A stretch of 41,513 nt of DNA from Acetonema longum DSM 6540 (lineage in GTDB: Bacteria; Bacillota; Negativicutes; Sporomusales; Acetonemataceae): contig NZ_AFGF01000098.1 in the NCBI RefSeq assembly GCF_000219125.1, positions 1-41,513 of the forward strand, in the 5' to 3' direction. The position numbers and the translations under genes were made by a program. The notes under the pieces are model-generated. The model searched no databases. It had not been told where the DNA came from and saw only the letters and a program-made list of their open reading frames with translations. Positions 15,893-41,056 of the stretch are shown here, in pieces. Each line of letters opens with the position of its first letter. The first letter of the stretch is position 1.

Positions 15893-15906
15893 TTTGCAAC
15901 AGACTC

Positions 15907-16659: not shown

Positions 16660-16663
16660 GAAA

Positions 16664-17857: not shown

Positions 17858-17874
17858 GGATAATCCTCCTAAAG

Positions 17875-17892
17875 GGGGCCCAACCGGGCCCC
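17875..17892 (-). other. GC-rich stem-loop between gap and pgk
   Basis: GGGGCCC-AACC-GGGCCCC, a perfect 7-bp stem with a four-base loop, directly after the gap stop codon and without a U-tract. More likely an mRNA-stabilising or processing hairpin that favours gap transcripts than a full terminator. Confidence 0.55.
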
Positions 17893-17911
17893 ATCTTCTC
17901 GATATGGTCTT

Positions 17912-18961
<1,050 letters not shown>

Positions 18962-19996: not shown

Positions 19997-20010
19997 GCTT
20001 TTCTCCCAGG

Positions 20011-20046
20011 GATGTTTTTTGTCCCGCCGGTACATATTTTGTCCCG
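20011..20046 (-). promoter_or_regulatory. CggR operator with candidate -10
   Basis: On the minus strand: CGGGAC-N6-TGTA-N4-CGGGAC-N6-CATC. This matches the known B. subtilis CggR operator pattern CGGGAC-N6-TGTC-N4-CGGGAC-N6-TGTC, with the two CGGGAC blocks and spacings kept exactly. A TAATAT box (20055-20050) lies four bases upstream, so the operator covers the start of transcription; no good -35 was seen. Confidence 0.85.
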
Positions 20047-22985: not shown

Positions 22986-22994
22986 CCCACTCCC

Positions 22995-24239: not shown

Positions 24240-24261
24240 AGTAGCTCCAACCTTTGTTTTA

Positions 24262-24801: not shown

Positions 24802-24822
24802 GATATCCTTTATCCCTCCTTG

Positions 24823-26847
24823 TTACACAGGCATAATATTGACAAATGTATCATAGTAGGCTATGGCGGGACCACCGGCGGCCGCTCCCCCCATATCGGT
24901 TCTCAAGGGAGGAACCAGGCAATTTAAAGCAATTTCAACTGCCGGCGGCTGATAGATAACAACCGTTCCCTCCGGTACAAATGAAGTGATCCTGCAGGTC
25001 ACGGCTATTTCGCCCCGGTCGTTCATCAGGCGGCCGGTTTTTCCCTCAACGATTTTGCTTTTCCTGGCGGTTTCAGGATGAAGATAGGCGAAAATTCGCT
25101 CCCGGGGTTCACGCTCATGCGGCTGGGAATTGATCCCATCCCGGCTGTGCGGTGTTAAAAGCCGATAGGGATATTTATGCGTTCCACAGGCAGCCTGCGT
25201 GTATACCGGCAATGGCGGCAGCCCCGCTTTTTGCGCCTGCAGTGAAAACAGCTCATATTTTCCCGAGGGAGTAGAAAAAGCGCCCTGTTCCCATGGATTT
25301 CCCGGAAACTTGAAAGGGCGGGGTCCGTCCAGCAATTCCCATACGTCGGAAATCCCCAGCAGTTTGCACATTTCAGGCGCCATAATATCCGCAAGCCACT
25401 CTTTCTCCGTTTTGCCGGCAGGAAATGAATTCGATCCGGGCTTACGCTCATTCAGTTTTTGAACCAGAAGATTAACGATGTCAATATCGGACTTGCACTC
25501 CCCAACCGGTGAAATCGCAGGCTGATTAATGCCCAGCCAGTTATGCCAGTAGCTGGGGGTGAGGTCCCAGTGCTCCAGAAAAGTGGTCACCGGCAGAAAC
25601 AGGTCCGCTTCCCGGGCCGTAGCCGTGAGAAATAAATCCGCTGCGACAACCATATCCAACTGTTTTATATGTTTGCGGATCATATCGACTTCCGCGTTTT
25701 GGGTCAGCGGATTGGCATTCGCCAATATCAGCATTTTGATCGGAGGATTCTCTATTTTTGCCAAACCGGCGGCCAAGTCATGGGCAAAAATGACCCGTCC
25801 GGGATCTGTCAGTCCCTCGCACTCCTTCACATGCTTCATGAGAAGCCGGCTGATGGACGGATTGGCAAAGTAGACACCCCCTCCCTTTTCCCCAATATGC
25901 CCCGTAATGGCAGACAAGGCGTTAATGCATCTCACGTTTTGCCCGCCATTGATATGGCGTTGCACTCCCAGTCCAATCCAAAGCGCTGCCGGTTGGGCGG
26001 CATATTCTTCGGCCAGCCTTCGCATCAGCATTGAGGGTACCCCGGTGATATCCGACATCTTTTGCAGGTCTATAGTATCTAAATATTGAAAAAAATCAGC
26101 TCCGCCCACCGTATAGCTTTCAACAAAGCCATGGTTGACCAGGTTGTTTTCATAAAGATGCTTTGCCATTCCCAATGCCAAAGCCCCGTCGGACCCCGGC
26201 CGTATCTGCACATACAAATCCGCCTGCGCCGCAGTAGCCGTGTAGACCGGATCAATAACAACAAGCTTTGCCCCCAGTTCCCGCGCCTGATTGATATAAT
26301 CCATCTGGTGAATGGCGGTCCAGGCAGGATTGCTTCCCCAGCAAATGATATGTTTCGTTTGCCCCATAGCCGACGGGTCCAGCTGCATATAATCCCCGAC
26401 ATCGAAGTGCAAAGCGTCCAGCCCCGCACCCCAGCATATGGATCCCGCGGTGTTTGTCGCCCCCAGGCTATTGGCCAGCCAGCTCCATGCCCGATGCAGC
26501 AGGCTGATGTTTCCCGAGTTGCTATAACAGCAAATGGGCTCAAAAGAGCCGAATTGCGCAGAAAGACTCAGTATTTTTTCCGCCATGATGTCAACTGCCA
26601 CAGGCCAGTCAATGCGGATCCATCTTCCCGAACGCCGCGGCTGCTGCAGCATGGGATATAAAATACGTTCCTTATGATACAAAGACCGTATATAACTCTG
26701 CCCCCGGGCACATATATACCCTTTGGTATACCCGTGCTGCCGGTCTCCCTGAATCTGCCGGACTTTACCGTTTTCCACCCGGGAGATAAGCCCGCACGTG
26801 CTATAGCAATTACTCGGGCATACATGCCGAAACACTTCCGTCCGCAT
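24823..26847 (-). CDS. Molybdopterin oxidoreductase, catalytic subunit, no Tat signal
   Basis: 674 residues, bis-MGD (DMSO reductase) family. N-terminal [4Fe-4S] site C10-x3-C14-x3-C18-x27-C46 (ending ICARG). Further features: SNSGNISLLHRAWSWLANSLGATN, GSICWGAGLDAL (Cys is a candidate Mo ligand), HIICWGSNPAWT, VVIDPVYTATAAQADLYVQIRPGSDGALALGMAKHL, WIGLGVQRHINGGQNVRCINALSAITGHIGEKGGGVYF and AREADLFLPVTTFLEHWDLTPSYWHNWLGINQPAI; C-terminal MGD-binding domain near 570-674. There is no twin-arginine signal, so the enzyme is cytoplasmic. Substrate cannot be inferred. First gene of an operon with an Fe-S subunit, PucR regulator and TorD chaperone; ATG follows CGGAGGAACT. Confidence 0.88.
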   Translation of the reverse strand: MRTEVFRHVCPSNCYSTCGLISRVENGKVRQIQGDRQHGYTKGYICARGQSYIRSLYHKERILYPMLQQPRRSGRWIRIDWPVAVDIMAEKILSLSAQFGSFEPICCYSNSGNISLLHRAWSWLANSLGATNTAGSICWGAGLDALHFDVGDYMQLDPSAMGQTKHIICWGSNPAWTAIHQMDYINQARELGAKLVVIDPVYTATAAQADLYVQIRPGSDGALALGMAKHLYENNLVNHGFVESYTVGGADFFQYLDTIDLQKMSDITGVPSMLMRRLAEEYAAQPAALWIGLGVQRHINGGQNVRCINALSAITGHIGEKGGGVYFANPSISRLLMKHVKECEGLTDPGRVIFAHDLAAGLAKIENPPIKMLILANANPLTQNAEVDMIRKHIKQLDMVVAADLFLTATAREADLFLPVTTFLEHWDLTPSYWHNWLGINQPAISPVGECKSDIDIVNLLVQKLNERKPGSNSFPAGKTEKEWLADIMAPEMCKLLGISDVWELLDGPRPFKFPGNPWEQGAFSTPSGKYELFSLQAQKAGLPPLPVYTQAACGTHKYPYRLLTPHSRDGINSQPHEREPRERIFAYLHPETARKSKIVEGKTGRLMNDRGEIAVTCRITSFVPEGTVVIYQPPAVEIALNCLVPPLRTDMGGAAAGGPAIAYYDTFVNIMPV

Positions 26848-26958
26848 AGTTCCTCCGCGTTAATTCCTGTATTACAGCATCTCCTGTATAAATTATACAC
26901 TATTTACACAGTACCTTCTTACATAAATCTCCCCGCACAACAATCATCCATCATCAAT

Positions 26959-26993
26959 ATAAAAGTGTTTGCCTGTTACGCAAACACTTTTAT
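26959..26993 (-). terminator. dmsABC operon terminator
   Basis: Perfect 14-bp arms (ATAAAAGTGTTTGC and complement) with a 7-base loop, stem ending in T-rich TTTTAT on the minus strand. About 35 bases past the dmsC stop; separates dmsABC from the second molybdoenzyme operon. Confidence 0.75.
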
Positions 26994-27027
26994 AAGCATA
27001 TATAAGGATTTCACTGTCATAAAAGAG

Positions 27028-27867
27028 TTAAAATTTCCCGATAAAGGGTACGCCGATCCCATAAAACAGATATCGTCCGATAATGGCCGACAGCAGTATC
27101 ATCGCAAAGGTTCCCTGCAGCCAGGTCTTTGCATCCGCAGACCCCATCCTGTATTTTTTGTGAAACCGGAACATCGAGGCAATGCTGCCCACTGCCAATA
27201 GTTGTCCTGCTATAAACAGAGACATTTGATCATAAAGCAGTTTTATGCTTTGCTGCGCCAGACCTGCCCCGTTCACAAAAACCAGATATGCCGCCATGCC
27301 GGTTAACTGCAGCACGACAGACGCGGAAATGCCGGCCAGGGCCGCAGGCACAGTCGGCTGCTCCTGCTCTTGCGGCAATTGCCACAGCAGAACCGCATAG
27401 CCTATTAAGCCGAGGATGGCAGCCGTGGTATAAAAGGCAATGTGGGTATAGAACGTACTCCAGGCGGCCACTGCCGTGTAGATATAAGTACACGCCGTAC
27501 TGATCAGGCAGAGGGCCCCGGCAAGCGCTGCCGCCCATCCTGCCAGCCGGTTCATTCCTGCACTTGCCAGCCCCTGTTTTTCCAAAAAGTAACATACAAT
27601 AACCAGCCCGAAGAATCCGCCGCTGAAGAAAATTTCCCGGCTCAGCCATGACGTCCCTATATTGGCAACCGCTCCATAAGCAGCCAGCGGACTGCCCAGG
27701 TGCATCAGCGATGTCCCCATCGCAATTCCCATTAAAACGATGACCCAGCGTAAAATACTTGTTATTGCCAAGCGCCTTTCCCCGTTTAAAATCTGATGGG
27801 CGAGAAACAGTCCGATACTCGCCTGGGAAAGCAGTGTAAAGACTACTAAAGGCCATTCGTGTTTCAT
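27028..27867 (-). CDS. dmsC: DMSO reductase membrane anchor subunit DmsC
   Basis: 279 residues with eight predicted membrane helices. Family marks: an N-terminal HEWPLVVFTLLSQASIGLFL helix, SLMHLGSPLAAYGAVANIGTSWLSREIFF (the H-LG-P and S-W-L-S-R-E motifs of DmsC), and the C-terminal LL-AIIGRYLFYG. Anchors DmsAB to the membrane and oxidises menaquinol. ATG follows GGAGGCGGGAGC; 12 bases after dmsB. No anomalies in this gene. Confidence 0.9.
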   Translation of the reverse strand: MKHEWPLVVFTLLSQASIGLFLAHQILNGERRLAITSILRWVIVLMGIAMGTSLMHLGSPLAAYGAVANIGTSWLSREIFFSGGFFGLVIVCYFLEKQGLASAGMNRLAGWAAALAGALCLISTACTYIYTAVAAWSTFYTHIAFYTTAAILGLIGYAVLLWQLPQEQEQPTVPAALAGISASVVLQLTGMAAYLVFVNGAGLAQQSIKLLYDQMSLFIAGQLLAVGSIASMFRFHKKYRMGSADAKTWLQGTFAMILLSAIIGRYLFYGIGVPFIGKF

Positions 27868-27879
27868 GCTCCCGCCTCC

Positions 27880-28462
27880 TTAGCTCTTATCCGCTATCGC
27901 GTTTTTATGCGGCTTCATAATTAACGACGGCTTTGTGGAAGGTTTGGGCATGCCTTTGATATAATTTGTGCCGCCGTATTTTTGACGCAATTCCTCCACG
28001 GGTCCCACATCCAGCACCCGCATGGGACAAGCCGTCACGCAGGCAGGCTTCTTGCCTTCCGCCAGAAGGTCCCGGCACAAATCGCATTTTCCCGTTTTTC
28101 CCGTATCAGGATTGTATTGCGGTGCGCCGTAAGGGCAGCTCATAATGCAATAGCGGCAGCCGATGCACTTCTTGGGATCGACAAACACAATCCCGTCTTC
28201 CTTACGTTTTTGCATAGCGCCCGTGGGACAATTTTTGACGCATGCCGGTTCAGCGCAGTGATTACAGCTCATTGAAATCCAATAAGCGTAGATATCACCG
28301 GTCACTACCGCATTGCTTTCTATGTATCCCCCTCCGGCGTACTCGGTCACTTTCCGGAACAGTTGTCCAACCTTCAGGTTATTTTTATTCTTTACAAGCG
28401 ATTTGGCAAGTTGAACATCCCACACAATTCTCTTGTTGAAAATAGAAGCCAAGCTGGGCCAT
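27880..28462 (-). CDS. dmsB: DMSO reductase iron-sulfur subunit DmsB, frameshifted near the 5' end
   Basis: Electron-transfer subunit with four [4Fe-4S] clusters. The natural start is the ATG at 28462 (GGGGAGGAG nine bases upstream). That frame encodes the first cluster motif CVGCSTCQIAC but stops at 28385. From there the +1 frame continues with KVTEYAGGGYIESN and the remaining clusters: CNHCAEPACVKNC, CIGCRYCIMSC and CDLC...CVTAC, to 27880. The +1 frame can also be read from a TTG at 28452, but that product lacks the first four cysteines. Removing one A near 28388-28389 restores a 193-residue protein of normal family length. Either a sequencing indel or a real mutation. Confidence 0.88.
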
Positions 28463-28483
28463 TTTACTCACTCCTCCCCATCC

Positions 28484-30859
28484 TTACGCCTTGGTAATCT
28501 GAACAAGATTCGTGTGCTGCGGATTGCCGAATGCCAGCGGAGTAGGATGATATTTTGTGATGGCATTGGTGCATCCCCGCTGGTCAACGCCCTGGGCATC
28601 CGGATTCCACCACGCTCCCTGCGGTACCGATATCACACCCGGCATCATGCGAGGAGTAATTTTTACCGGCAGCATCATACTGCCGCGATCATTGTAAACC
28701 TTTACTTTCTCACCGTTTTGCAGCCCTCTGTCCGCCGCGTCCCGGGTATTGACCCAGACTTCCTGCGGAGCCGCCTCTTCCATCCAGCGAACATTATCAA
28801 AGGTCGAATGAACGCGGCGTTTGAAGTGATGGCCTATGCACTGCAGCGGATACTTGCCGCGCAGCGGGTCCGCCGGTCCTTCCCAGGCAGCGATATATTT
28901 CGGAATGGCAGGAATCTCTTTGGGTTTGTTCATGGCCCACAAGCGAGGTGAAAAAATCTCAATTTTGCCCGACGGCGTAGGAAAGGGATTATGTTCCGGG
29001 TCTTCAATTTGTTTTTGAAAGGCAATGCTGGGCTCTTGATATTGCCAGCGGTATACGCCTTTCGCCTTGAACTCCTCATAAGACGGGAAACCCGGGTTTG
29101 CCTTGCGCGTGTCGTCCACTATTTTACGCAGCCATTGCTCTAATGTTTTGCCTTCCGTAAATTTTTCTCTCAGACCTAATTTTTCGGCGAGATCGGAGAT
29201 CCAGTCATACCCATTGCGGCATTCAAATACCGTATCCACCGCTTTATTCATATACAGGATATAGTCGCCGTAGCCCCAGGGCGTAACAATGTCTTCCCGC
29301 TCCATCATATTGTCAGACGGCAGTAAAATATCGGCGAATTTAGCGCTGGCTGTCATGAAATGCTCGCTGGCCACAATACATTCCACCAGGCTTTCATCTT
29401 CCAATATCTTGGCGGTTCCGCCGCAATCCGAATGCTGGTTAATGAGACAATTTCCGGCGAGGTTATAAATCATCTTAATGTTGGTTGATAATTTTTTAAC
29501 GCCTTTTACCCCTTGTTCCGTTCCCATGTCTTTGCCATGCTGAATCGCATCCGGCCAAATATAGCAGGAGATCGAAGCCTTGCAAGGATTATTGACAGGG
29601 ATGGCGCCAATCTTTTGGCTGCGGGCCTGGGAAGCGTTTCCTGACGCCCAGCCGCCTTTTATGCCGACATTCCCGGTCATGGCCGCTAAAACAGTGCCGC
29701 TCCGGACAACCTGCTCGCCGTAAGCATGCCTTTGGGGACCATATCCCTGAATCAGGGCCCCCGGTTTCATCGTGGCATACTCCCGCGTCAGCTGTATAAT
29801 TTTATGGCGCGGGATTCCGGTGATCGTTTCTGCCCATTCAGGCGTTTTGGCAGTCTTATCGTCGCCTGATCCCATTACATAGCTCCGGTAAGAATTCCCC
29901 GGCGGAATATGATCAGGCATATGTTCTTCATCAAAGCCCAGGCAGTATCTGTCGAGAAAAGGCTGATCCTGCAGATTTTCACTGATCATGACATACGCCA
30001 TGGCATCCAGCAGCGCACTGTCGGTTGTAGGCCGGATGGGAATCCATTCATCGGCCAGCCCTATGGCGGTATTGGAATACATCGGATCGATGACCACGAT
30101 CTTTGCCCCGGCTTCCTTCGCCTGTTTTAAGTAATAGGCGGTGTTTGTCCCATGGATCGTTTCCGCCGGGTTCCATCCCAGAAGAATAATCAGCTTGGAA
30201 TCGGCCCAGGTCTCGCGGCTGCTGCCGGTAGCCGTCGTTCCATAGGTATAGGGAGTGGCCATGGACGTGCAGGCAGTGCTGTAAGTCCCATAGTAGTTTA
30301 AATACCCGCCGTACATGCCCAGCAGACGGGACATCCATACTCTCTCAGCCACTTTGCCGGCAATGCCGCTGCCGTATTGCATATAGATCGCTTCCGGTCC
30401 ATATTGCTGCATAATACGCTGAGTGTGGCCGGCAATGATCGTTAATGCTTCATCCCAGGTGATGCGTTCAAATTTGCCTTCGCCGCGCTTGCCTACCCGT
30501 TTCATCGGATATTTCAACCGATCCGGATGATAAAGCCGGTCACGGTAAGAGCGGCATCGCAAACATCCTCTGAGCTGCGGCATCTGAGGCGTATCCGGGA
30601 TATCGTCGTCCGTGGATATACGGGTAATGATCCCATCGCTGACATGCGCCTTGATGCGGCACCTTCCCCCGCAATTATGGGAGCCGGCAGTCAGTACAAC
30701 CATTTCCGGCACTCTTGCTTCCGACATTTTCGCCATCCCGGTAAAAATATCTTCGGAAAGCATTCCTAAAGCACTGAGCCCCCCGACTGTTGCTGCACTG
30801 CATGTAAAAAATTTGCGCCGTGAAATCCGTTGGACCCAAAAATCTGTTTTATCTCCCAC
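28484..30859 (-). CDS. dmsA: DMSO reductase-type catalytic subunit DmsA
   Basis: 791 residues from GTG at 30859. Twin-arginine signal SRRKFF at 13-18 followed by a hydrophobic stretch: exported by Tat. Close to E. coli DmsA over its length: RLKYPMKRVGKRGEGKFERITWDEA, NYYGTYSTA (Ser of YSTA aligns with the Mo ligand), DEWIPIRPTTDSALLDAMAYVM, QGYGPQRHAYGE, AGNCLINQHSD, GHHFKRRVHSTFDNV, TPRMMPGVISVPQGAW. The N-terminal cluster site reads SHNCGGRC with C63, C67 and C99 kept, but Gly59 where E. coli has the first Cys. The frame is open to 31060; the GTG is chosen because AAAGGA lies ten bases upstream and the signal peptide starts there. Reduces DMSO or a related S/N-oxide. Confidence 0.9.
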   Translation of the reverse strand: MGDKTDFWVQRISRRKFFTCSAATVGGLSALGMLSEDIFTGMAKMSEARVPEMVVLTAGSHNCGGRCRIKAHVSDGIITRISTDDDIPDTPQMPQLRGCLRCRSYRDRLYHPDRLKYPMKRVGKRGEGKFERITWDEALTIIAGHTQRIMQQYGPEAIYMQYGSGIAGKVAERVWMSRLLGMYGGYLNYYGTYSTACTSMATPYTYGTTATGSSRETWADSKLIILLGWNPAETIHGTNTAYYLKQAKEAGAKIVVIDPMYSNTAIGLADEWIPIRPTTDSALLDAMAYVMISENLQDQPFLDRYCLGFDEEHMPDHIPPGNSYRSYVMGSGDDKTAKTPEWAETITGIPRHKIIQLTREYATMKPGALIQGYGPQRHAYGEQVVRSGTVLAAMTGNVGIKGGWASGNASQARSQKIGAIPVNNPCKASISCYIWPDAIQHGKDMGTEQGVKGVKKLSTNIKMIYNLAGNCLINQHSDCGGTAKILEDESLVECIVASEHFMTASAKFADILLPSDNMMEREDIVTPWGYGDYILYMNKAVDTVFECRNGYDWISDLAEKLGLREKFTEGKTLEQWLRKIVDDTRKANPGFPSYEEFKAKGVYRWQYQEPSIAFQKQIEDPEHNPFPTPSGKIEIFSPRLWAMNKPKEIPAIPKYIAAWEGPADPLRGKYPLQCIGHHFKRRVHSTFDNVRWMEEAAPQEVWVNTRDAADRGLQNGEKVKVYNDRGSMMLPVKITPRMMPGVISVPQGAWWNPDAQGVDQRGCTNAITKYHPTPLAFGNPQHTNLVQITKA

Positions 30860-31383
30860 ATGAGCCACATCCTTTCCGCTTCGTATTTTTCTAAGATTCA
30901 AGCAACTATTCATATATAAAGAATATTTTATTTGCCGGACGCAAGTCCTCTTGGATAAAATGCAGAAATATCCCCGCCTTGATTGTAGAAATGAACAATC
31001 GCGCGCTGAAAGCGCTGCGCAGGAACGGAAGCATGCAGTGATGATTTCTTTTTCTGTCACGGCTACATGATCTTCTTATACGAAAAAGGGACCGGGCGCT
31101 GCTTTTCAACCAAACCCGCTTCTGGATTAATGGCCTGGAATCACACACGTTCATCTGATAGATTGTTAATATTTAACAGGAATTTTATTGCAGGCATTGC
31201 CAAAAACGGCGAAAACGGCAGGATCATGCAGCTAATTGATCATGGCCTTCCGCCGGCGATAGACGGAAAGCATCTAAATAGTCAAAAAAATTAATGCATT
31301 TGATAAAAAAATATGTCATAATAGTCACCATAATACCATCTACATAATAAAGTGCATGATCTCTTATGAGAGAACTTAATAAA
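30860..31383. other. Divergent intergenic region between dmsA and the c-di-GMP riboswitch
   Basis: Short open frames here are not convincing as genes. A 15-bp palindrome TGTTAA-TAT-TTAACA at 31164-31178 resembles CRP/FNR or Rex-type half sites but with non-standard spacing. No clear promoter could be assigned for either the dms operon or the riboswitch transcript; A/T-rich -10-like boxes lie at 31319-31348. Confidence 0.4.
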
Positions 31384-31451
31384 CACGGCAAACTTATTGA
31401 AAAATAAGGACGCAAAGCTATGGGTCTACGTACTTTAAGTATATGGCTGCC
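31384..31451 (+). promoter_or_regulatory. Cyclic-di-GMP-I (GEMM-I) riboswitch
   Basis: The class I c-di-GMP aptamer is recognised from its conserved blocks: CACGGCAAAC, a stem CTTATT/AATAAG closed by the GAAA tetraloop (31399-31402), GGACGCAAAGC, GGGTCTAC, and a 3' GGCTGCC. GGCA (31387-31390) pairs with TGCC (31448-31451) to close the aptamer. The 3' GCC is also the start of an intrinsic terminator stem, so aptamer and terminator compete. The simplest reading is an ON switch: c-di-GMP stabilises the aptamer and lets polymerase through into the exopolysaccharide operon. The direction is inference. Confidence 0.93.
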
Positions 31452-31480
31452 AGGTTGCAAAACTGCAACCTGGCTTTTTT
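31449..31480 (+). terminator. Riboswitch-controlled intrinsic terminator
   Basis: Perfect 11-bp arms GCCAGGTTGCA (31449-31459) and TGCAACCTGGC (31464-31474), loop AAAC, then TTTTTT. It shares its first bases with the c-di-GMP aptamer and lies 80 bases before the first gene. Confidence 0.92.
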
Positions 31481-31559
31481 GTTAGCTTAAATCATACGGT
31501 CAGTCTGATGCGACGGTAAATTTACCACAGGCGAACTTTGTCAGGCAGGGAGGGTTCTG

Positions 31560-32045
31560 GTGAAAAAGTTTTTACTATTACCGTTTGCCATGGCAACGGT
31601 AATCAGCAGTCTGCCCGCAGGGAATCCATGCCGTGACGAACTGGCCGGGGCTGAGCCGTGGACGGGGAACATAGCATATGCAAGCGGTTTTTCGGACGCC
31701 GGCGACCCTGCGGTTGCATCCCGGGAGAATATGGAAGAAAACAAAGCCAGGATTTCTTACGAGCTGGCGAAAATTACGGCCGATATCGTATCCGTCCCGA
31801 CCGCCGATACGGAAAATTTCAAAAGGACAGTTGCTTACGCCAATGCCCGGATTACAGCAACAGTGATGCCGCTGCTGCCCGACAGTCAGAAAAAGGATTT
31901 TGCCAATGAAATGGCCCAGCTTACCACGGCGATCATGAATGACCCGAATCCGGATGTCGAAATAGCCAAAACGGAATTAACCTATAAAATTGCCCTGCTG
32001 ACAACAAAAATCATCACCAATGCCGGTAAAGGCAAATGCCGGTAA
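31560..32045 (+). CDS. Secreted helical N-terminal part of the outer-membrane barrel gene (frame broken)
   Basis: 161 residues in this frame. A Sec signal peptide (KKFLLLPFAMATVISSLPAG) is followed by an alpha-helical region with repeated ELAKITADIV / ELTYKIALLTTKI-type helices and no recognised family. Start is GTG with GGGAGGG six bases upstream. The frame ends at 32045 only because a perfect 16-bp tandem duplication (32019-32034, 32035-32050) shifts it by one. With one copy it runs straight into the barrel frame that follows, giving a 493-residue protein: signal, helical domain, Pro/Ala-rich linker, beta-barrel. First gene of the exopolysaccharide operon; probably part of the export channel. 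As it stands, a truncated soluble periplasmic product is expected. Confidence 0.75.
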   Translation: MKKFLLLPFAMATVISSLPAGNPCRDELAGAEPWTGNIAYASGFSDAGDPAVASRENMEENKARISYELAKITADIVSVPTADTENFKRTVAYANARITATVMPLLPDSQKKDFANEMAQLTTAIMNDPNPDVEIAKTELTYKIALLTTKIITNAGKGKCR

Positions 32046-32050
32046 AGGCA
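32019..32050 (+). repeat. Perfect 16-bp tandem duplication causing a frameshift
   Basis: AATGCCGGTAAAGGCA is repeated head to tail without a gap. Since 16 is not a multiple of three, it moves translation out of the barrel frame into a stop at 32045; one copy restores the full-length frame. Either a reversible switch, a fresh mutation or an assembly artefact. Confidence 0.97.
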
Positions 32051-33057
32051 ACAGCGGTGCTGCTCCGGCGGCACCGCAGCCTCGACGTAATGGCAAAACG
32101 CCGCGCCAGGCAGCCGATGCCGGCGCTCCCCCCGCAACAAGCTCAGGGGACATCGACCCGGAAACCCACGCGGCTCTGATCCATGAATTAATGCAGACTG
32201 GCCAGGACAGCCGCCGGGCCGGCGATAAAATCAATACCGCCGGCGAAGTCCGCTATCATTATGCCCTGAACAGCGGCGCCGGCCTTTGGGGTCAGGATAT
32301 ATCCGGCTTCCGCGCCCGCCTGGCCTTTGATGCTGAGACCCGCCCGGATTGGCGCATCCACGGCATGCTGGAGGGCAAAAGAAATATCCTCAATTATGAT
32401 AACCATGCCGGCCTGCCTTATCTTTTCCTGGAAGGGAAATTAGGCCGGTCGCTGCTGCGGGCAGGGTCTTTCAGCCACCTTATGGCTGAAGGAAATATTT
32501 ACGACAGCGGTTTTGACGGCATTCAGCTTAATTTCGGCGAACCGGTGAAATACAGGCTGAGTTACGGGGAAACCGGGCATTCAAAGGAAACGGCGATAGC
32601 CACGGCACGCTACGAGGATTTTGATTACAACCTGGAAGCCGGCGTCTATCACTATCGGACAGACACAGATCAGAAAAATACGATCCGGTCTCTGGGCGGA
32701 AATTACAATTTCAGCAATTTTGGCGTAGGAGCCACGATTTTGAGCGCAACGCTGCAAGACAGCCAGGGAGATCATGACGGCTATGTGTTGAGTTTTAACT
32801 ACGGCGGTTTAAAAACCTGGCGTCCGGGCACCTACAGCCTGTTTGCCAAATATTACAATCAGCCGCAGGGAACCTATATTATGCATGGAATGAACGGCCC
32901 CGGCAGCCGGATGCAAGGATTTAAGGGCTACGGCTTAGGAATGGGCTATACGGTGGCGGCGAATTTTGTGGCAGGCCTCGAATATTACGACCTGTCAGAA
33001 AAAGCCTCCGGCGATAGCGCCAGAACCTGGTGGAGTTACCTCATGCAATATTTTTAA
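32020..33057 (+). CDS. Outer-membrane beta-barrel (porin-like) C-terminal part, exopolysaccharide export
   Basis: 345 residues if read from the ATG at 32020, which has no Shine-Dalgarno. So it is best seen as the C-terminal part of the 31560 gene. A Pro/Ala-rich linker (~1-45) is followed by alternating amphipathic strands rich in Tyr, Gly and Asn (FRARLAFDAETRPDWRIHGMLEGKR, LFLEGKLGRSLLRAGSFSHLM, YRLSYGETGHSKETAIATARYEDF) ending in LEYYDLSEKA...SYLMQYF with a terminal Phe, the Bam-recognised beta-signal. Predicted outer-membrane barrel. By position with a synthase and deacetylases it is likely the polymer exit pore, filling the role PgaA or AlgE has elsewhere, though no sequence relation is claimed. 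Confidence 0.72.
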   Translation: MPVKANAGKGNSGAAPAAPQPRRNGKTPRQAADAGAPPATSSGDIDPETHAALIHELMQTGQDSRRAGDKINTAGEVRYHYALNSGAGLWGQDISGFRARLAFDAETRPDWRIHGMLEGKRNILNYDNHAGLPYLFLEGKLGRSLLRAGSFSHLMAEGNIYDSGFDGIQLNFGEPVKYRLSYGETGHSKETAIATARYEDFDYNLEAGVYHYRTDTDQKNTIRSLGGNYNFSNFGVGATILSATLQDSQGDHDGYVLSFNYGGLKTWRPGTYSLFAKYYNQPQGTYIMHGMNGPGSRMQGFKGYGLGMGYTVAANFVAGLEYYDLSEKASGDSARTWWSYLMQYF

Positions 33058-33084
33058 ATACATTAGCAGGTGAAATCGGAATAT

Positions 33085-34407
33085 ATGGAAATTTTATTAA
33101 AATTACAGGCAAAAGAAGCTTTGCTGGCAGTTGTAGGCCTTGGCTATGTAGGGTTGCCGCTGGCGGTTGCGTTTGCCGGAAAAGTCCGGACCCTTGGCTT
33201 TGATATTAATCCGGAAAAAGTGGCTGTTTATCAGCAGGGAATTGATCCTACCCATGAAGTCGAAACGGCGAAGCTCCAAAGCACGACACTGGAATTTACT
33301 ACTGATCCAGCCCGGCTGAAAGAAGCCCGCGTGATCATTGTTGCAGTGCCGACGCCGGTCAATGGAGATAAAACCCCGGATTTAACGTCCGTTGTCAGCG
33401 CCAGTGCACTGATCGGGGAAAATCTGACGCCGGGCAGTATTGTCGTTTTTGAATCGACGGTGTATCCCGGGGTTACCGAGGATATTTGCATTCCGGTGTT
33501 AGAGTCGAAATCAGGCCTGGCATGCGGCAAAGATTTCAGGGTAGCCTATTCACCGGAAAGAATCAATCCCGGCGATAAAGTGCAAAGACTGGAAAATATC
33601 CGGAAGATTGTTGCCGCGACAGATGAGGAAACATTGGAAACGGTTGCGGCGATTTATGAACTGATTATTCAGGCGGGAGTATATAAAGCAGCCGGCATTA
33701 AGGTGGCGGAAGCGGCAAAGCTGGCTGAAAATGCCCAGAGAGACATTAACATTGCTTTTATGAATGAACTGGCCCTGGCATTCGACCGCATGAAAATCAA
33801 CACCAAAGATGTAATCGACGCCATGAACACCAAATGGAATGCCCTGCGGTTTCAACCCGGCCTGGTAGGCGGGCATTGCATCGGCGTGGACCCGTATTAC
33901 TTCATTTATCAGTTCCAGATGCTGGGGTATCACTCGCAGCTTATTGCCGCCGGCAGAAAAATTAACGATGCCATGGCCGGCTTTGTCGCTGACAACATTA
34001 TAAAAAAAGTGATTCAAGCCAATAAAAATCTAAAAAGAGCCAACATTTATATTATGGGAATTACCTTTAAAGAAAATTGCCCGGATATGCGCAATTCAAA
34101 GGCCGTCGACGTCTGCAGGCACCTTGCCGGATATGGAATTCAGGTAAAAGTGGCTGACCCGGTTGTTGATCCCGCAGAATTTAAAAAAGAATACTGCCTG
34201 CCGCTTGTCAGGCTGGAAGAGGTCAAAAATGCCGATTGCCTGGTATTTTTAGTTGCCCATCAACACTTCCGGGAACTACAGCCGGCGAATCTGGCCGGCA
34301 TGTTCAAGCAGCCAGGGCGGCAAACCCGTCATGTCATTATTGATATCAAGCATATATTTGAGCGTAAAGTAATGGAAGAAAGCGGTTATTCCTACTGGAG
34401 CCTTTAA
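33085..34407 (+). CDS. Nucleotide-sugar dehydrogenase (UDP-N-acetylhexosamine 6-dehydrogenase type)
   Basis: 440 residues from ATG 33085 (AGGTGA eleven bases upstream); a GTG at 33070 has no SD. Oxidises C6 of a UDP-sugar with NAD. Rossmann motif VVGLGYVGLPLAVAF, VPTPVNGDKTPDLTSV, FESTVYPGVTED, YSPERINPGDK, the catalytic region VGGHCIGVDPYY (Cys 265 from this ATG), and GITFKENCPDMRNSKAVDV. The VYPGVTE and SPERINPGDK wording and the KWN-x-x-x-F-x-PGLVGGHC stretch resemble the TviB/WbpO/CapL branch, which act on UDP-GlcNAc/GalNAc, more than the UDP-glucose enzymes. It would supply an N-acetylhexosaminuronate (or uronate) donor for the polymer; substrate not proven. Confidence 0.85.
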   Translation: MEILLKLQAKEALLAVVGLGYVGLPLAVAFAGKVRTLGFDINPEKVAVYQQGIDPTHEVETAKLQSTTLEFTTDPARLKEARVIIVAVPTPVNGDKTPDLTSVVSASALIGENLTPGSIVVFESTVYPGVTEDICIPVLESKSGLACGKDFRVAYSPERINPGDKVQRLENIRKIVAATDEETLETVAAIYELIIQAGVYKAAGIKVAEAAKLAENAQRDINIAFMNELALAFDRMKINTKDVIDAMNTKWNALRFQPGLVGGHCIGVDPYYFIYQFQMLGYHSQLIAAGRKINDAMAGFVADNIIKKVIQANKNLKRANIYIMGITFKENCPDMRNSKAVDVCRHLAGYGIQVKVADPVVDPAEFKKEYCLPLVRLEEVKNADCLVFLVAHQHFRELQPANLAGMFKQPGRQTRHVIIDIKHIFERKVMEESGYSYWSL

Positions 34408-34426
34408 GTACAAGGCGGTGATATGC

Positions 34427-35785
34427 GTGAAATATAAAACAATACTGCTGGTGCCGGTTCTGCTGCTGTTGGGCGTTTATCTGACCGGAATCCCGTTTAT
34501 CGGACTATTTTCACTTCTGCCAGAACAGGCTGCCGCTTTATTTTCCATCCGTACAGTTCAGGCGACAGCTGCCGATAACCAGGCACAGGAAATCAGGGTG
34601 ATTCCTACTACCGAGCCGGCGCTCTCCTTTACCTTCGGCGGCTTAAGCAGGGAGGCGGCAGTGAGCGATGTGCTCCGGCGGCTCCGCGGTCTGGGCATCA
34701 GGGCGACGTTTTTCGTCATGGAACCGGAAATCCGGCGGCATCCGGCAACGCTGCGGAAAATTATCGCCGACGGGCACGAAATCGGCATTGCCATACGGCC
34801 GAAAGACGGGGAAGCGCCGGACGAAACCCGCCGGATGATTTTAGCTACCGGCAGGCTGCTGCAGGAGCAGTTCGGGGTGACCACCGGCCTGGTAAAACAG
34901 CCCTGGGGAGCCGTGTCGGACACGACAAAAGAAGCGGTTGCCGGTCTGGGATATAGGCTGATTGGCCAATCCGTCAATGTGGTGCAAAGCAGGCATAAGG
35001 ACTATACGGCCGCCGACCAGGTGATGGCCGAGATTTTCGGCAAATTTGCCCTGTCTTTATCCCGGGGGCAGATCGTCCATTTCAGAATGGACTATTATAG
35101 CAATGAGCGTCTGGCTGGCGATCTGGTCGAAACCATTAAATGGCGCAAAGTGGATAACATTGCCTATGCACCCTCCTACGACAATCCCGCCAATAACCCG
35201 GCCAATGATTCGCAGTATGCGATAAAGCCGGTCGGCGAGCTGCTCAGGCACAGCCGGTTTATCTATCAATATCCGGCCGATCCGGCGACCATTCCGGGCG
35301 GCTTACGCTACGACGGTCCCAGTGTAAGAATCACAGGGCGCAATGTAATGGCCGAAGCCGCCAAGCGGTATATCGGCCATAAAGATGTCAATTACGAAGA
35401 CCGTATGCTAGGCTTCTCGAAAATGGAGACCCGCCGCCTCGATACCAGCGGCTTGATCCATACGGAGGACAGGGTTATTTTTCTCACTTTTGACGACTGG
35501 GAACAGACGCCGCGATCAATAAGCTGCTGTATGTTCTGCGCAAGCACCGGGTTACGGCGACGTTTTTCATTACGACCAATAACGTATTATATAATCCGAA
35601 CCTGCTCCGGGCGATTGCCATGGAAGGCCATGAAATCGCCAGCCATTCCGATCAGCATCTGCCGCTGGTCATTCGCGATCCGCGAACCGGCCGGCTGGTA
35701 CAAACCCAGGATAAAGACGAATATCGCGCCGACCTTGCCGCAGCCTACCGAAAATTGCGGGCTGTCACCGGAGATGTTCTTGTGA
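34427..35785 (+). CDS. Tandem NodB-type polysaccharide deacetylase, N-terminal part (frameshifted)
   Basis: Starts at GTG 34427 with AAGGCGG eight bases upstream; a signal-anchor helix occupies residues ~5-22. The first NodB-like domain has LSFTFGG in place of TFDD and no His-x-x-x-His, so it is degenerate and probably inactive. A linker then leads to a second NodB domain beginning VIFLTFDDW. At 35499-35501 the sequence has three G where four are needed; the frame then runs off to a chance stop at 35785. Adding one base joins it with the next frame into a 588-residue protein that carries a full catalytic set. Removes N-acetyl groups from a surface polysaccharide, in the periplasm or at the inner membrane. 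Confidence 0.8.
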   Translation: MKYKTILLVPVLLLLGVYLTGIPFIGLFSLLPEQAAALFSIRTVQATAADNQAQEIRVIPTTEPALSFTFGGLSREAAVSDVLRRLRGLGIRATFFVMEPEIRRHPATLRKIIADGHEIGIAIRPKDGEAPDETRRMILATGRLLQEQFGVTTGLVKQPWGAVSDTTKEAVAGLGYRLIGQSVNVVQSRHKDYTAADQVMAEIFGKFALSLSRGQIVHFRMDYYSNERLAGDLVETIKWRKVDNIAYAPSYDNPANNPANDSQYAIKPVGELLRHSRFIYQYPADPATIPGGLRYDGPSVRITGRNVMAEAAKRYIGHKDVNYEDRMLGFSKMETRRLDTSGLIHTEDRVIFLTFDDWEQTPRSISCCMFCASTGLRRRFSLRPITYYIIRTCSGRLPWKAMKSPAIPISICRWSFAIREPAGWYKPRIKTNIAPTLPQPTENCGLSPEMFL

Positions 35786-36183
35786 ACGGCCGGCCGGCCC
35801 TGACCCGTTTTTTCCGCCCACCGACGCTGGCGATCAGCAAAACGGGGCTGGAAGCAGCCTTTGACGCCGGCTGCGAATACATTGTCGCCGGCTCGGGCAA
35901 CACCTACGACTATACGGCGGAAAATGCGCCGCAGCTTGTGAGAACAATGAAAGACGTGGTTTATACGGAAAAAGGGGAACTAAAAAGAGGCGCGGTTTTA
36001 ATCATGCATATGAGCGACAGTTCGGCATACACGGCAATGGCTTTGGACATTCTGCTGACCGCCAATGCCGCCAGGACGGATTCCGATCCTGCCAAATTCA
36101 AAGCCGGCCGGTTATCTGATTATTTATCCGCCGGGTATTCGCAGATCAGCCGGAAGCAATCGCTGCAATTAAACAGGCTGTGA
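35620..36183 (+). CDS. C-terminal part of the tandem NodB deacetylase (other frame)
   Basis: Continuation of the 34427 gene in the -1 frame. The coding signal begins right after the lost base at 35501 (GTDAAINKLLYVLRKHRVTATFF), so the ATG at 35620 is only the first internal Met. It carries the second-domain catalytic motifs: SHSDQH (two metal His), RFFRPP, and the C-terminal ILMHMS. Together with TFDD upstream, all core NodB motifs are present, so this domain would be active if the frame were whole. Ends at 36183, 90 bases before the synthase gene. Confidence 0.78.
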   Translation: MEGHEIASHSDQHLPLVIRDPRTGRLVQTQDKDEYRADLAAAYRKLRAVTGDVLVNGRPALTRFFRPPTLAISKTGLEAAFDAGCEYIVAGSGNTYDYTAENAPQLVRTMKDVVYTEKGELKRGAVLIMHMSDSSAYTAMALDILLTANAARTDSDPAKFKAGRLSDYLSAGYSQISRKQSLQLNRL

Positions 36184-36273
36184 ACAGGGTTTGGCCTGTT
36201 CTACCGGTCCAGTCGCGGGTGCCTGGTTGAATAAGCTGCAGCAGGCAGCTGGAAAATGGCGGGAATGTGGATC

Positions 36274-38122
36274 ATGCGGATAAGAAACAAAGTATTCCGG
36301 CAAAAAAATAAAAAAAGAAACCGATGTCCTGCTGCTCGACAGGCCGGACCGCAGACGGCTCGCCAAAGTTCCCGACCGGGAAGGACTGCGGACAAACGCC
36401 GACAGGCGCCGTCTGAAAACAGACACCGCCCCGGACGATGCGGCAGGCTTGATCGTCAGCCAAACGATGGGCAGAAGATATCTGATTGATTATGACGTTT
36501 CCCTCCGTTATCTTGCCGCCGGCAAGAGTGTTGCCTGTCCGGTAAAAGGAATCGATATTTCCACGACCGGCATGCTGCTGGAAGTCCCCCCGGAAGTCGG
36601 GCAAGACTTGCGGCAGGCGGAGAAAATCAGCCTGAAGTTTGTCATCGCGCCCGGCACCATGCCGGAAGGATATGAAATGAAAGTCCGTATGGCGGCTAAA
36701 TTTATCCGCCTGAGTGAAAGCCCGGACGGGAAAACGCGGTGCGGCGTGGAATTTGCCCAATCGCTGGCTCAGTATGCGGCCAGGAGGAAAAGCCGCTATC
36801 TGCTGCCGGCGGCCGCTTTCCTGCTGTTTGTGATTACCGCCTGCATCCTGCTGCTGCGGGCGGAAAGCGTACTGTATTTTAAATTTAATCAAACCCTGTA
36901 TCTGTACAGCATCATTGCGGCTACTTTTTTGCTGACCCGTTACCTGTTCGCCTCCTTTTACCGCCCTGTTCCCATCGACAAAGACTTTACGCCCGGAGTT
37001 TCCATCATCGTGCCCTGTTTCAATGAGGAAACCTGGATACAAAAAACGATTGCAGGCTGCCTGAATCAGGATTATCCCAGCGATAAGCTGGAAGTGATCA
37101 TCGTCGACGACCACTCCGACGACCAATCGGTTGCGAGAATCAAAGAAATCGTGGAAAAGCTGAAAACCCAGGAGCCATATTACCGGGTCGGCGACAGGCT
37201 GCACTATCTCTGCCAGGAAAAGAACGCCGGCAAACGGGAGGCCCTGGCGCGGGGAACGTTGATGGCCAGGCATGAACTGGTGGTGTTTGTGGATTCGGAC
37301 AGCTTTTTAGAACCGTTTGCCATCCGCAACGTCGTCCAGCCGTTCAAAGACGCCAAAACGGGCGGGGTCACCGGCCGGACCGACGTGGCCAACACCTATA
37401 CCAACGCCCTGACGAAAATGCAGGCTGTGCGCTATTTTATCGCCTTTCGCATCATGAAAGCGGCGGAAAGCTATTTTGACGCCGTCACCTGTTTATCCGG
37501 CCCTCTCTCCTGTTACAGAAAAGCTCTGGTGGTCAGGCATCTGGACAGCTGGCTGCAGCAGACATTTCTCGGCGAGAAAGCCACCTTCGGCGATGACCGC
37601 AGCATGACCAATTTTATCTTGCGCGGCAACCGGACCGTTTATCAGGATACGGCCGTCTGCCATACCATCGTCCCCAACACCTATCGTGTTTTTTTGAAAC
37701 AGCAGATGCGCTGGAAGCGCTCCTGGCTCAGGGAATCGCTGATTGCCGCCGGCTTCATGTGGCGCAAAGAACCGTTTATGGCCCTATCCTTTTATGCAGG
37801 GCTGCTCATCCCGGTCCTGGCGCCGGTGACCGTTGTGTATAACCTGGTGTACATTCCCCTGGTCCACCGGGTGTTTCCGCTGACCTTTGCGGCCGGCCTT
37901 CTTTTGATGGCCATGCTCATGAGCATGGCGCAACTGCTGCTGCGGAAAAGCTCCACCTGGATTTTCGGCCTGTGGTTCTGCCTGTATTACGAGGCCGTGC
38001 TGTTGTGGCAGATGCCGGTTGCCTGGGTGACCTTCTGGAAAACTACCTGGGGAACGCGCATGACGCCCGCCGACATCATGGAGCGGTTAAAAAAGAACCG
38101 CCGGCAGCAAAAGAAGGCATAA
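36274..38122 (+). CDS. PilZ domain fused to a hyaluronan-synthase/NodC-like GT2 synthase
   Basis: Processive membrane glycosyltransferase with an N-terminal c-di-GMP receptor domain. Counting from the first start codon in the main frame (TTG 36449, no good SD): PilZ ~8-110 with the DxSxxG motif DISTTG (36-41); two membrane helices ~118-170; GT2 core with DD 220-221, DSD 282-284, GDDR 381-384 and QQMRW 418-422; C-terminal helices from ~440. GDDRSMTNF, GNRTVYQDTAVCHTIVP and QQMRWKRSWLRES are close to HasA/NodC. The partner RxxxR of PilZ is not clear (GRRYLIDYD). The main frame is open upstream to 36284 with a sensible Asp/Arg-rich sequence but no start; an ATG at 36274 joins it through A-tracts at 36302-36316 if one A is removed, giving 615 residues. 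Confidence 0.88.
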
Positions 38123-38126
38123 GACA

Positions 38127-39998
38127 ATGACAACAGCCGATGAGAAATTTACCGCCCGCAAAAACAAAAAGAAACGAATCCGTACAGCCGGGCAGATCCT
38201 CTTCCTCCTGGCAGTGGCTGCCTTTTGCACCAACGCTTTATTTACCTTAACCCCCTATATTTCCTATACCGGACAGCCGGTGAAATTTTCCGGGGACAAG
38301 GGCTTTATCGCGCTGGCCTATTTCGGCGTGGAACGGACCGGCACCCAGGCGTTGATCGGAACAGACCGTTTGCGGGAACATCTGCAGGCGCTGAAAAAGC
38401 TGGGCTATGTCACGATCAGCCAGCAGGATATTGCGGACTACTACCGGTCAGGCAAGGAACTGCCGGAAAAATCACTGTTTCTGATCTTTGAAGACGGCCG
38501 GCGGGATACAGCCATTTTCGCCCAGAAAATCCTCGAAGAATTGAACTTTAAAGCAACCATGCTGACCTATGCGGCAAATTTCGCAAAACAGGATCCTAAA
38601 TTTTTAACGCCGGACGAGTTGAAAAATCTGGAGAAAACAAGTTTTTGGGAACTGGGCACCAATGGATACCGTCTGGCATTTATCAACGTATTCGACCGGT
38701 ACGGCAATTATCTGGGAGAACTGAACCCATTGCAGCATGCCAAAGTTGCGCCATATTTAGGACGCAAATACAATCACTATTTAATGGATTATATCCGCGA
38801 CGAATACGGTATTCCCAAAGAAAGCCACACCCGGATGAAAGACCGGATTGCCTATGATTATGAAGCGCTGGGGAATATTTACGCAAGGTCGGTAGGGTAT
38901 ATACCCGGAACGCATATCTTAATGCATTCCAATACCGGCAGCTTCGGCAATAACGCTGCAGTAAGCGTTGTGAACAAACACTGGATAGAAGCGCTGTTTA
39001 CGATGAACTTCAACTGGGAAGGATTCTGTTTCAATCAGCGCAGCAGCAGCATTTACGACCTGACCAGAATGCAGCCCCAGGCCTATTGGTCTGCCAATCA
39101 TTTGCTGATGCGGATCCAATACGATATCCATCAGCCGGCGGATTTTATCAAAGGCGATCTGGATAAGCAAAACGCCTGGGAAACGCTAAAAGGAGCAGCG
39201 GAATTGAAAGAAGAAACAATTATTTTAACCTCGTTGCCAAACGATAAAGGGCTGCTGCGATTAAAAAACAGCAACGACTTTGCCGACCTGAAGCTGGCCG
39301 TGCGGCTCAGGGGAAACAAACTGGGCCTGCAGAAAATCTATCTCAGAACCGGCGAAAAATTCAGCCGCTTCCTGGCCGTATCGATACAGGATAATATCCT
39401 CTATATTACCGAAAAAACCGGCGGCAGCGAAACGGAATTATGCAAGCTAAACCTGGATCAACACGATGGCAAGACCGTCCAGTCCGTTCCGGAGGATAAA
39501 AAAGCGGCGGAAATGCGGGCTCTGGAAGCCTTCCTGCAGTATGCCGGGTCTGCCGGGCAAGCCGGGCTTTACTCCAAGCGCCTGCAGGCTAAAAGCCTTG
39601 AAGACGTCCCCACCGTAGCCCAGGGCGCGGCGGCCTATATTCCTGACCTCAGCGCGCATGAAAAAGGCGACCGGACGCTGTCGCTGTCTCTCGCGGGAGA
39701 TAAAATCAGCGTGCAAGTGGACGGCCAGGCTGCCGTAACCGATTTACAACTATCCAATACGGCCGCAGGCTCCGTTTATCTGGAATCGGCCTGGAGCGGC
39801 TATGGCTGGAGTCAAAGAAATCCGGCCGACGATGTATACGACGGCGTGTTTGAAAAGCTGGTGATCACCGAAACCACGGGCCGTCTGGCAGAGGAAAAGA
39901 TTTTATTCGACAGCGGGCTGCAAGGCTGGGATGCCGTCAAATTCGCCGTGAAGAAATATTGGCAGGCGCTCATCAACTGGTTTATTGTCAATTTTTAA
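38127..39998 (+). CDS. Membrane-anchored degenerate NodB-fold protein with C-terminal beta domain
   Basis: 623 residues. Basic N-terminus, one signal-anchor helix (~20-42), then a PgaB-like polysaccharide deacetylase fold: GFIALAYFGVERTG, LKKLGYVTISQQDIADYY, and SLFLIFEDGRRDTA where TFDD is expected, with Glu121-Asp122 left. FWELGTNGYRL stands where the family has the His-x-x-x-His motif, so metal binding is probably lost or altered. HILMHSNTG is present at the last motif. Residues ~350-600 form a beta-rich region (LamG/jelly-roll-like: KLAVRLRGNKLGLQKIYLRTGE, YLESAWSGYGW) suggestive of glycan binding. Starts four bases after the synthase stop, so tightly coupled to it. Likely a polymer-binding or modifying partner rather than a classical deacetylase. 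Confidence 0.72.
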   Translation: MTTADEKFTARKNKKKRIRTAGQILFLLAVAAFCTNALFTLTPYISYTGQPVKFSGDKGFIALAYFGVERTGTQALIGTDRLREHLQALKKLGYVTISQQDIADYYRSGKELPEKSLFLIFEDGRRDTAIFAQKILEELNFKATMLTYAANFAKQDPKFLTPDELKNLEKTSFWELGTNGYRLAFINVFDRYGNYLGELNPLQHAKVAPYLGRKYNHYLMDYIRDEYGIPKESHTRMKDRIAYDYEALGNIYARSVGYIPGTHILMHSNTGSFGNNAAVSVVNKHWIEALFTMNFNWEGFCFNQRSSSIYDLTRMQPQAYWSANHLLMRIQYDIHQPADFIKGDLDKQNAWETLKGAAELKEETIILTSLPNDKGLLRLKNSNDFADLKLAVRLRGNKLGLQKIYLRTGEKFSRFLAVSIQDNILYITEKTGGSETELCKLNLDQHDGKTVQSVPEDKKAAEMRALEAFLQYAGSAGQAGLYSKRLQAKSLEDVPTVAQGAAAYIPDLSAHEKGDRTLSLSLAGDKISVQVDGQAAVTDLQLSNTAAGSVYLESAWSGYGWSQRNPADDVYDGVFEKLVITETTGRLAEEKILFDSGLQGWDAVKFAVKKYWQALINWFIVNF

Positions 39999-40024
39999 CC
40001 ATTTACAGCCGCGGGAGGAAGTCC

Positions 40025-41056
40025 ATGCGAAAGATATTGGGTGAAATGCTCAAAGCAATTGTATTTGCCTCTGCCGTTTTCAGCCTGGTCAGCTGCTTTT
40101 ACGGCCTCTCCGCCGGCAAAGCGGACGCCAAAGAGCCAGCCAGGCGGTCGGCCTGGCTGGCTTACTGGGATTTGGCCGCCGGCGAAAAAGATTTGCACAA
40201 GCTGGAAAAAAGACTGACCAGCCTCTCTTATTTCGCTGCCTATTTTGACAAGGACGACCGCCTGTTCATCCCTCCCGCGCTGATCGACAAAAAAAAGGAA
40301 CTGCAAAAAACCGGCAAAAAACATGAAGCGTATCTTACCTTTGTCAATGATAAGCAAAATCCCGACGGCTCGGCGGCCATAAAAGACACGGCAGTCCTCC
40401 GCAGGCTGTTTGCCGATGCTGCTTCGATGGAAAAGCACATTGACGAAATCCTGGCGCTGGCTTTGCAGGGCGGCTTTGACGGCATTGAAATTGATTATGA
40501 GCGAATATGGAAAGACCAGGCTGTGGGGCAGTCTTTCCTGCGATTTACCCGCTCGCTTTACCGCAAGACGCTGCAAAACAACCTGCAGCTCAGGATCGTG
40601 CTGGAACCGGGTGCGCCGTTTGCCGGCACGACTTTTACCGAGGGGCCGGAATATGTCGTCATGCTGTATAACCTGCATGGCCTGCACAGCGGCCCCGGCC
40701 CAAAGGCCGACCGGAGCTTTATCGAAAAAACGCTGCAGCGGATGCAGTCCCTGCCCGGCGCCAGGTCGGTTGCCTTTGCCACCGGCGGCTGCCTCTGGGG
40801 CGATAACGGCGAAAAACGCCTGCTGACAGAGGTGGAGGCGAGAACACTGGCCACGCTTCATGGCGCGGCAGCCACCCGGGATGCGGCGAGCCGGAGCGTT
40901 GCATTCGCTTTCCGGGAGAACGGCGTTTCCTACCAGGTGTGGTATGCCGACGCCAAAACGCTGCAATATTGGACCGGCATCGCCGCCAGGCAGGGAGCGG
41001 CAAATATCAGCCTGTGGCGGCTGGGCGGCAACGCCGACATAGGAAAAATCCGCTAG
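40025..41056 (+). CDS. GH18-type glycosidase lipoprotein
   Basis: 343 residues from ATG 40025 (GGGAGGAAG upstream); an in-frame ATG at 39959 lies in the previous gene and is rejected. Lipobox LVSC (21-24) after a hydrophobic signal predicts a lipoprotein. The GH18 barrel shows AWLAYWDLA at strand one and FDGIEIDYE (151-159), a DxxDxDxE motif in which the second Asp is Glu155 while catalytic Glu159 is kept. YVVMLYNLHG and ISLWRLGGN match later strands (substrate Tyr and Trp). GH18 enzymes cut beta-1,4 GlcNAc polymers, which fits a synthase of the NodC/HasA class; it could trim the polymer or clear it from the periplasm. Last gene of the operon. Confidence 0.8.
   Translation: MRKILGEMLKAIVFASAVFSLVSCFYGLSAGKADAKEPARRSAWLAYWDLAAGEKDLHKLEKRLTSLSYFAAYFDKDDRLFIPPALIDKKKELQKTGKKHEAYLTFVNDKQNPDGSAAIKDTAVLRRLFADAASMEKHIDEILALALQGGFDGIEIDYERIWKDQAVGQSFLRFTRSLYRKTLQNNLQLRIVLEPGAPFAGTTFTEGPEYVVMLYNLHGLHSGPGPKADRSFIEKTLQRMQSLPGARSVAFATGGCLWGDNGEKRLLTEVEARTLATLHGAAATRDAASRSVAFAFRENGVSYQVWYADAKTLQYWTGIAARQGAANISLWRLGGNADIGKIR

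Follow-up and report, generated by a model that had tools for sequence, protein, structure and literature searches.

A c-di-GMP riboswitch and a PilZ-fused synthase in a probable exopolysaccharide operon of Acetonema longum and its relatives

Can a single second messenger govern both the transcription of a polysaccharide operon and the activity of the synthase encoded in it? The question is raised by contig 98 of the Acetonema longum DSM 6540 genome (NZ_AFGF01000098.1; 41,513 nucleotides, referred to here as the window; the assembly comprises 4.32 Mb in 295 contigs and is 99.93% complete), where a riboswitch for cyclic diguanosine monophosphate (c-di-GMP) precedes a set of genes that includes a glycosyltransferase family 2 (GT2) synthase with a PilZ domain. 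A preliminary description of this DNA had proposed that c-di-GMP acts at both levels in an operon of unfamiliar composition. We consider it likely that the locus is a synthase-dependent exopolysaccharide operon under control of an ON riboswitch and that it operates by the mechanism proposed below. The gene set is conserved, is uncharacterised as far as the open-licence papers searched show and represents a new variant among the synthase-dependent exopolysaccharide systems.

Riboswitch and terminator

A covariance-model search with RF01051 placed a c-di-GMP-I (GEMM-I) aptamer upstream of the operon, as the preliminary description had it, with a score far above the curated cut-off (Table 1); according to an Rfam scan, it is the only GEMM-I aptamer found in the A. 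longum genome. The intrinsic terminator that follows shares 14 nucleotides with the 3' end of the aptamer. When the aptamer is folded alone, its 5'-proximal GGCA pairs with UGCC at 31448–31451, and most of these UGCC bases also belong to the 5' arm of the terminator. The two structures therefore compete for the same bases, and ligand binding is expected to permit read-through, so that the riboswitch is predicted from its structure to be an ON switch. The overlap between aptamer and terminator is also present in the loci of other relatives (L005, L012 and L014).

An aptamer is found 5' of the operon in 12 loci of the Sporomusa/Pelosinus type and in one Acetobacterium locus (L062), in which a terminator likewise lies 3' of the aptamer. 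In at least 10 genomes (G000, which is A. longum itself, G003, G004, G031, G049, G055, G057, G067, G085 and G095) it lies 4–6 kb upstream of the synthase gene on the same strand. Because the aptamer, the overlapping terminator and the recurrence 5' of orthologous operons all agree, the predicted control of operon transcription by c-di-GMP is well supported.

Gene content and proposed mechanism

The leader is followed by the genes for an outer-membrane barrel (in two open reading frames, ORFs), a nucleotide-sugar dehydrogenase, a carbohydrate esterase family 4 (CE4, NodB-type) protein, the PilZ-GT2 synthase, a degenerate CE4 protein and a glycoside hydrolase family 18 (GH18) lipoprotein. All of them are encoded on the forward strand with gaps of 4–26 nucleotides, but with 265 nucleotides 5' of the synthase gene; the co-directional set described earlier was thus confirmed, with the dehydrogenase, CE4, degenerate CE4 and GH18 proteins recovered in domain and family-model scans. 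The dehydrogenase also scores 416 bits with the TviB model, which is under the cut-off of that model. The CE4 gene encodes a degenerate domain (TFGGL) followed by a domain with intact motifs (TFDDWG, HSxxH). In the degenerate CE4 protein, the metal-binding motif of this family, TFDDG with HxxxH, was not found; since the two motifs are replaced by FEDG and GTNGYR, which are themselves conserved, this protein is a conserved relative of active CE4 enzymes that probably does not deacetylate. The GH18 motif DxxDxDxE is present, and its Asp157 and Glu159 are invariant among 70 relatives; the Pfam score of the GH18 domain is slightly below the cut-off in the window (28.3 vs 29.6 bits) and above it in the orthologue of locus L043.

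At high concentrations, c-di-GMP would bind the aptamer, and the bound aptamer would take up nucleotides of the 5' arm of the terminator and let transcription enter the operon. The PilZ-GT2 membrane synthase would then polymerise and extrude a chain that contains N-acetylhexosamine (HexNAc), possibly with a HexNAc-uronic acid unit supplied by the TviB-like dehydrogenase. Some of the N-acetyl groups would be removed by CE4 domains located in the periplasm or at the surface; among these domains, the last alone retains an intact active site. The polymer would probably be bound or guided by the degenerate CE4 proteins and would be trimmed or released by the GH18 lipoprotein. In diderm Negativicutes, the barrel, which is fused to tetratricopeptide repeats (TPRs) in Sporomusa, would carry the polymer across the outer membrane, a role suggested by its fold and its genetic linkage.

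Several observations weigh against this reading. The barrel, CE4 and synthase genes are disrupted in this genome. In the PilZ domain, the family alignment shows G-x-R-Y-x-V-D/N in place of RxxxR, so that the second arginine is absent from the window and from the family alike. Rfam searches found no GEMM-I aptamer near the selenomonad and clostridial orthologues tested, except for Acetobacterium. Finally, locus L004 carries an aptamer for which no clear terminator was found.

Table 1. Features of the operon region (positions in the window; all on the forward strand)
Feature	Position	Strand	Basis or remark
c-di-GMP-I (GEMM-I) riboswitch aptamer	31377..31462	+	Rfam RF01051, 78.3 bits (curated cut-off 35 bits), E 7.1e-14
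Intrinsic terminator, 11-bp G+C-rich stem then T6	31449..31474	+	stem -21 kcal/mol, z -5.1
Barrel gene, 5' part: signal peptide and helical N-terminal region, 161 aa	31560..32045	+	out of frame with barrel part
Perfect 16-bp tandem duplication, AATGCCGGTAAAGGCA x2	32019..32050	+	shifts barrel-gene frame
Predicted outer-membrane beta-barrel, 16 strands, OmpM-like fold, 345-aa ORF	32020..33057	+	structure model
Nucleotide-sugar dehydrogenase, TviB-like (UDP-HexNAc type)	33070..34407	+	TIGR03026, 397.7 bits, above cut-off
CE4/NodB gene, two domains, frameshifted at about 35498	34418..36183	+	motifs, comparison with relatives
Conserved N-terminal extension DRR..VPD..R.N.DRR	36284..36448	+	open frame without usual start codon in this copy
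GT2 polysaccharide synthase	36449..38122	+	motifs VDDxS, DSD, GDDR, QxxRW; hyaluronan-synthase fold
PilZ domain, synthase N-terminus	36476..36772	+	PF07238; DxSxxG kept, Asp in place of second RxxxR arginine
Degenerate CE4 (PgaB-N-like) protein	38127..39998	+	conserved FEDGRRDT replaces TFDDG; C-terminal region without further Pfam match
GH18 lipoprotein	40025..41056	+	lipobox LVSC; catalytic motif DGIEIDYE

Synthase and PilZ domain

The catalytic motifs of the GT2 domain are invariant in the family alignment, and both profile and Foldseek comparisons identify hyaluronan synthases as the closest solved relatives of the enzyme (Z 25–28 over about 375 residues, root-mean-square deviation about 3, across the glycosyltransferase and transmembrane regions). 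The PilZ domain N-terminal to GT2 that had been described earlier was recovered: PF07238 matches the window synthase with 22.7 bits (range 22.7–26.4) against a cut-off of 22.5 bits, and all 27 of the N-terminal regions scanned match it at E up to 0.1. The genome has three PilZ matches.

Whether this domain senses c-di-GMP is less clear. In Alg44 and BcsA, the arginines of RxxxR contact c-di-GMP (PMC8461298; PMC10374906). Across the operon family, the second of them is replaced by Asp, Asn or another residue, and its absence weakens the case for allosteric gating by c-di-GMP; of the two levels of control proposed earlier, the transcriptional one therefore stands on the aptamer, the terminator and their recurrence, whereas gating of catalysis through PilZ is in doubt. 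It is tempting, then, to let the riboswitch alone sense c-di-GMP and to view PilZ as a structural or otherwise regulated, non-binding module. This option, which we hold tentatively and somewhat short of even confidence, has a precedent in RiGT2 of Romboutsia, whose fused PilZ domain is required for activity while no interaction with c-di-GMP was seen (PMC10374906). When PDB sequences were searched with a profile of the PilZ region, no solved PilZ domain was matched either; the whole-synthase fold searches were dominated by the glycosyltransferase domain and hardly tested the PilZ part. Against a non-binding module, the D/NxSxxG motif is retained (DISTTG in the window, its S and G being invariant), R65 of the open frame and DxSxxG are nearly or fully invariant, and the arginines of the extension just 5' of PilZ (Table 1) are invariant in the alignment and could supply the missing contacts.

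The same motif, the same basic N-terminal segment and the membership in the PilZ family favour the classical arrangement in which riboswitch and PilZ domain both bind c-di-GMP, as do nine GGDEF matches in the genome. With RxxxR lost and the riboswitch absent from most of the orthologous operons tested, its chances appear to us to be almost, but not quite, even. In one way or another, regulation of the synthase is a probable role of the PilZ domain, which judging from its sequence is a candidate for c-di-GMP binding.

Among the GGDEF matches of this genome, a weak one (42 bits; C106:26742-27200) lies inside an open frame of 4466 aa, apparently a gene of giant size or repetitive make-up.

Comparison with known polysaccharide systems

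The unfamiliar composition that the preliminary description had noted holds up, as the Pga, Bcs and NodC models all score below their cut-offs and a search of open-licence papers yielded no characterised system with the same gene order. NodC, the chitooligosaccharide synthase, is the best named family model for the synthase, with a score far under its cut-off (TIGR04242, 175.5 vs 550 bits), and membership in this family was rejected on that score. The enzyme resembles class I hyaluronan synthases, which make a chain of alternating GlcNAc and GlcA, and NodC-type GT2 enzymes in fold and catalytic motifs, with about 26% identity; unlike them, it carries an N-terminal PilZ domain and an arginine-rich extension and is encoded alongside CE4, GH18 and porin genes.

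Membership in the Pga system for poly-beta-1,6-N-acetylglucosamine (PgaABCD) was rejected, with PgaC at 120.6 bits (cut-off 422.3) and PgaB at 31.5 bits (cut-off 321.9). Both systems include a GT2 synthase, a CE4 deacetylase-type protein and an outer-membrane porin, and the Sporomusa porin recalls PgaA in combining TPRs with a barrel. In contrast to Pga, PgaD was not seen in the operon, GH18 is encoded by a separate gene and the barrel is nearest to OmpM; the PgaB-like protein differs from PgaB in its degenerate CE4 motif and in having no further Pfam match.

The Bcs system was likewise rejected (BcsA/CelA model, 44.9 vs 699.1 bits). BcsA is also a membrane-bound GT2 synthase to which a PilZ domain is fused, but there the domain is C-terminal, and no BcsB is found among the operon genes. 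RiGT2 shares with the operon enzyme its origin in a Firmicute and the fusion of GT2 to PilZ; it differs in being BcsA-like, with a C-terminal PilZ domain, and in making a mixed-linkage glucan (PMC10374906).

Outer-membrane barrel

The outer-membrane barrel listed earlier was corroborated by a structure model with 16 predicted strands and a predicted local distance difference test score (pLDDT) of about 90 across the barrel. Its best match in the PDB is OmpM1 of Veillonella parvula (Foldseek E 2.1e-18, TM-scores 0.72/0.80), and general porins trail behind near 1e-10. OmpM, an outer-membrane tether and porin of Veillonella, is alike in barrel fold; it differs from the operon barrels in that Pfam found no SLH domain in those tested, and in that the operon barrel is linked to polysaccharide genes. 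We infer from the fold, and not from a tree, that the putative exporter may be of OmpM origin. Neither Pfam nor family-model scans found a TPR in the window barrel. The earlier contrast with known exporters, whose barrels carry TPRs, nonetheless fails: in the Sporomusa ovata orthologue (1134 aa), this barrel is preceded by TPRs, through which the protein gives a PgaA match below the cut-off, so the presence of TPRs is a matter of lineage variation.

Distribution among relatives

The synthase search retained 80 loci from Negativicutes, Clostridia and a few other assignments of metagenome-assembled genomes, and within a draw of 300 genomes from the class Negativicutes, the synthase was found in 66 (E up to 1e-100). 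The closest named matches come from Propionispora, Pelosinus, Lucifera and Sporomusa. Most of the 80 loci carry adjoining CE4, degenerate CE4 and GH18 genes, and this core is kept together with the synthase in both Negativicutes and Clostridia. The preliminary description had inferred a function in the biofilm matrix of a diderm Firmicute; the system is not specific to diderms, because Clostridia have the same core. The barrel occurs in the diderm loci of the search, whereas the clostridial loci gave no match to it. The selenomonad and clostridial loci without an aptamer indicate that the PilZ-fused synthase is wider than the riboswitch, and any joint wiring would accordingly be limited to Acetobacterium and the Sporomusa/Pelosinus group. 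In the latter, a monoderm, the aptamer (L062:5582-5678) lies directly 5' of the dehydrogenase gene of the orthologous operon and is possibly an independent acquisition.

These patterns could be joined into one account, in which a Firmicute-wide system with an enzyme of the hyaluronan-synthase fold reads c-di-GMP through its PilZ domain by means of non-canonical upstream arginines, the exporter of diderm Firmicutes arose from the local OmpM porin and gained TPRs independently of PgaA and BcsC, and the Sporomusa/Pelosinus group added the riboswitch. As a whole, we regard this account as unlikely. If the likely reading of the operon is right, the widespread, little-studied Negativicutes, together with many gut Clostridia, would have a candidate pathway for a biofilm polymer, with a testable c-di-GMP switch. 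The operon would also serve to test whether one messenger acts twice in one operon and whether an outer-membrane polysaccharide exporter arose separately in diderm Firmicutes.

In a Selenomonas locus (L018), the first CE4 domain has a gene of its own and the remaining two are encoded after the GH18 gene (8871-9827 and 14664-16334), so the placement of CE4 domains varies within this system. A Paenibacillus plasmid (NZ_CP045296.1, 264873-266519) encodes a PilZ-GT2 homologue with 58% identity across 98% of the query, which extends the family to Bacilli.

State of the operon in A. longum

The tandem duplication splits the barrel gene into its two ORFs; the product of the first is 46–49% identical to the N-termini of relatives that are 493–496 aa long. 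The frameshift in the CE4 gene coincides with GGG in the window vs GGGG or GGGGG in six relatives, and the first of the three CE4 domains encoded by this gene in close relatives is missing. The conserved N-terminal frame of the synthase opens at 36284 after a TAA and has no in-frame ATG, GTG or TTG until 36449; an A7TA7 tract adjoins this interrupted N-terminus. As read, the operon is disrupted in this genome and may be non-working.

Could the locus, then, be a decaying or phase-variable one? We find this evenly balanced. Besides the lesions themselves, such a state would fit the only other genome of the same family, in which no full-length synthase or PgaB-like match was found, and the single GEMM-I aptamer of A. 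longum, compared with 3–14 per genome in those relatives of the same order that have the synthase. On the other side, the long frames are otherwise intact, and a crude frame-shift screen, which recovers the CE4 shift, flagged 14 suspect junctions in 303 kb elsewhere in the same assembly. The disruptions in the operon may therefore be sequencing or assembly errors, as the screen cannot separate decay from error. In either case, the A. longum copy is a poor one to study.

Neighbouring genes

Divergent from the operon, the reverse strand at 22278-31060 carries a cluster for a molybdopterin reductase of the DMSO/selenate family (gene at 28484-31060; TIGR02166, 1028 bits), with iron-sulfur subunits, a membrane anchor and a second molybdopterin protein. 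Also on the reverse strand (12910-20035) is what we take to be a glycolytic run of enolase, gpmI, tpiA, pgk, gap and a CggR-like regulator, the frames of which, in contrast to those of the operon, appear intact.

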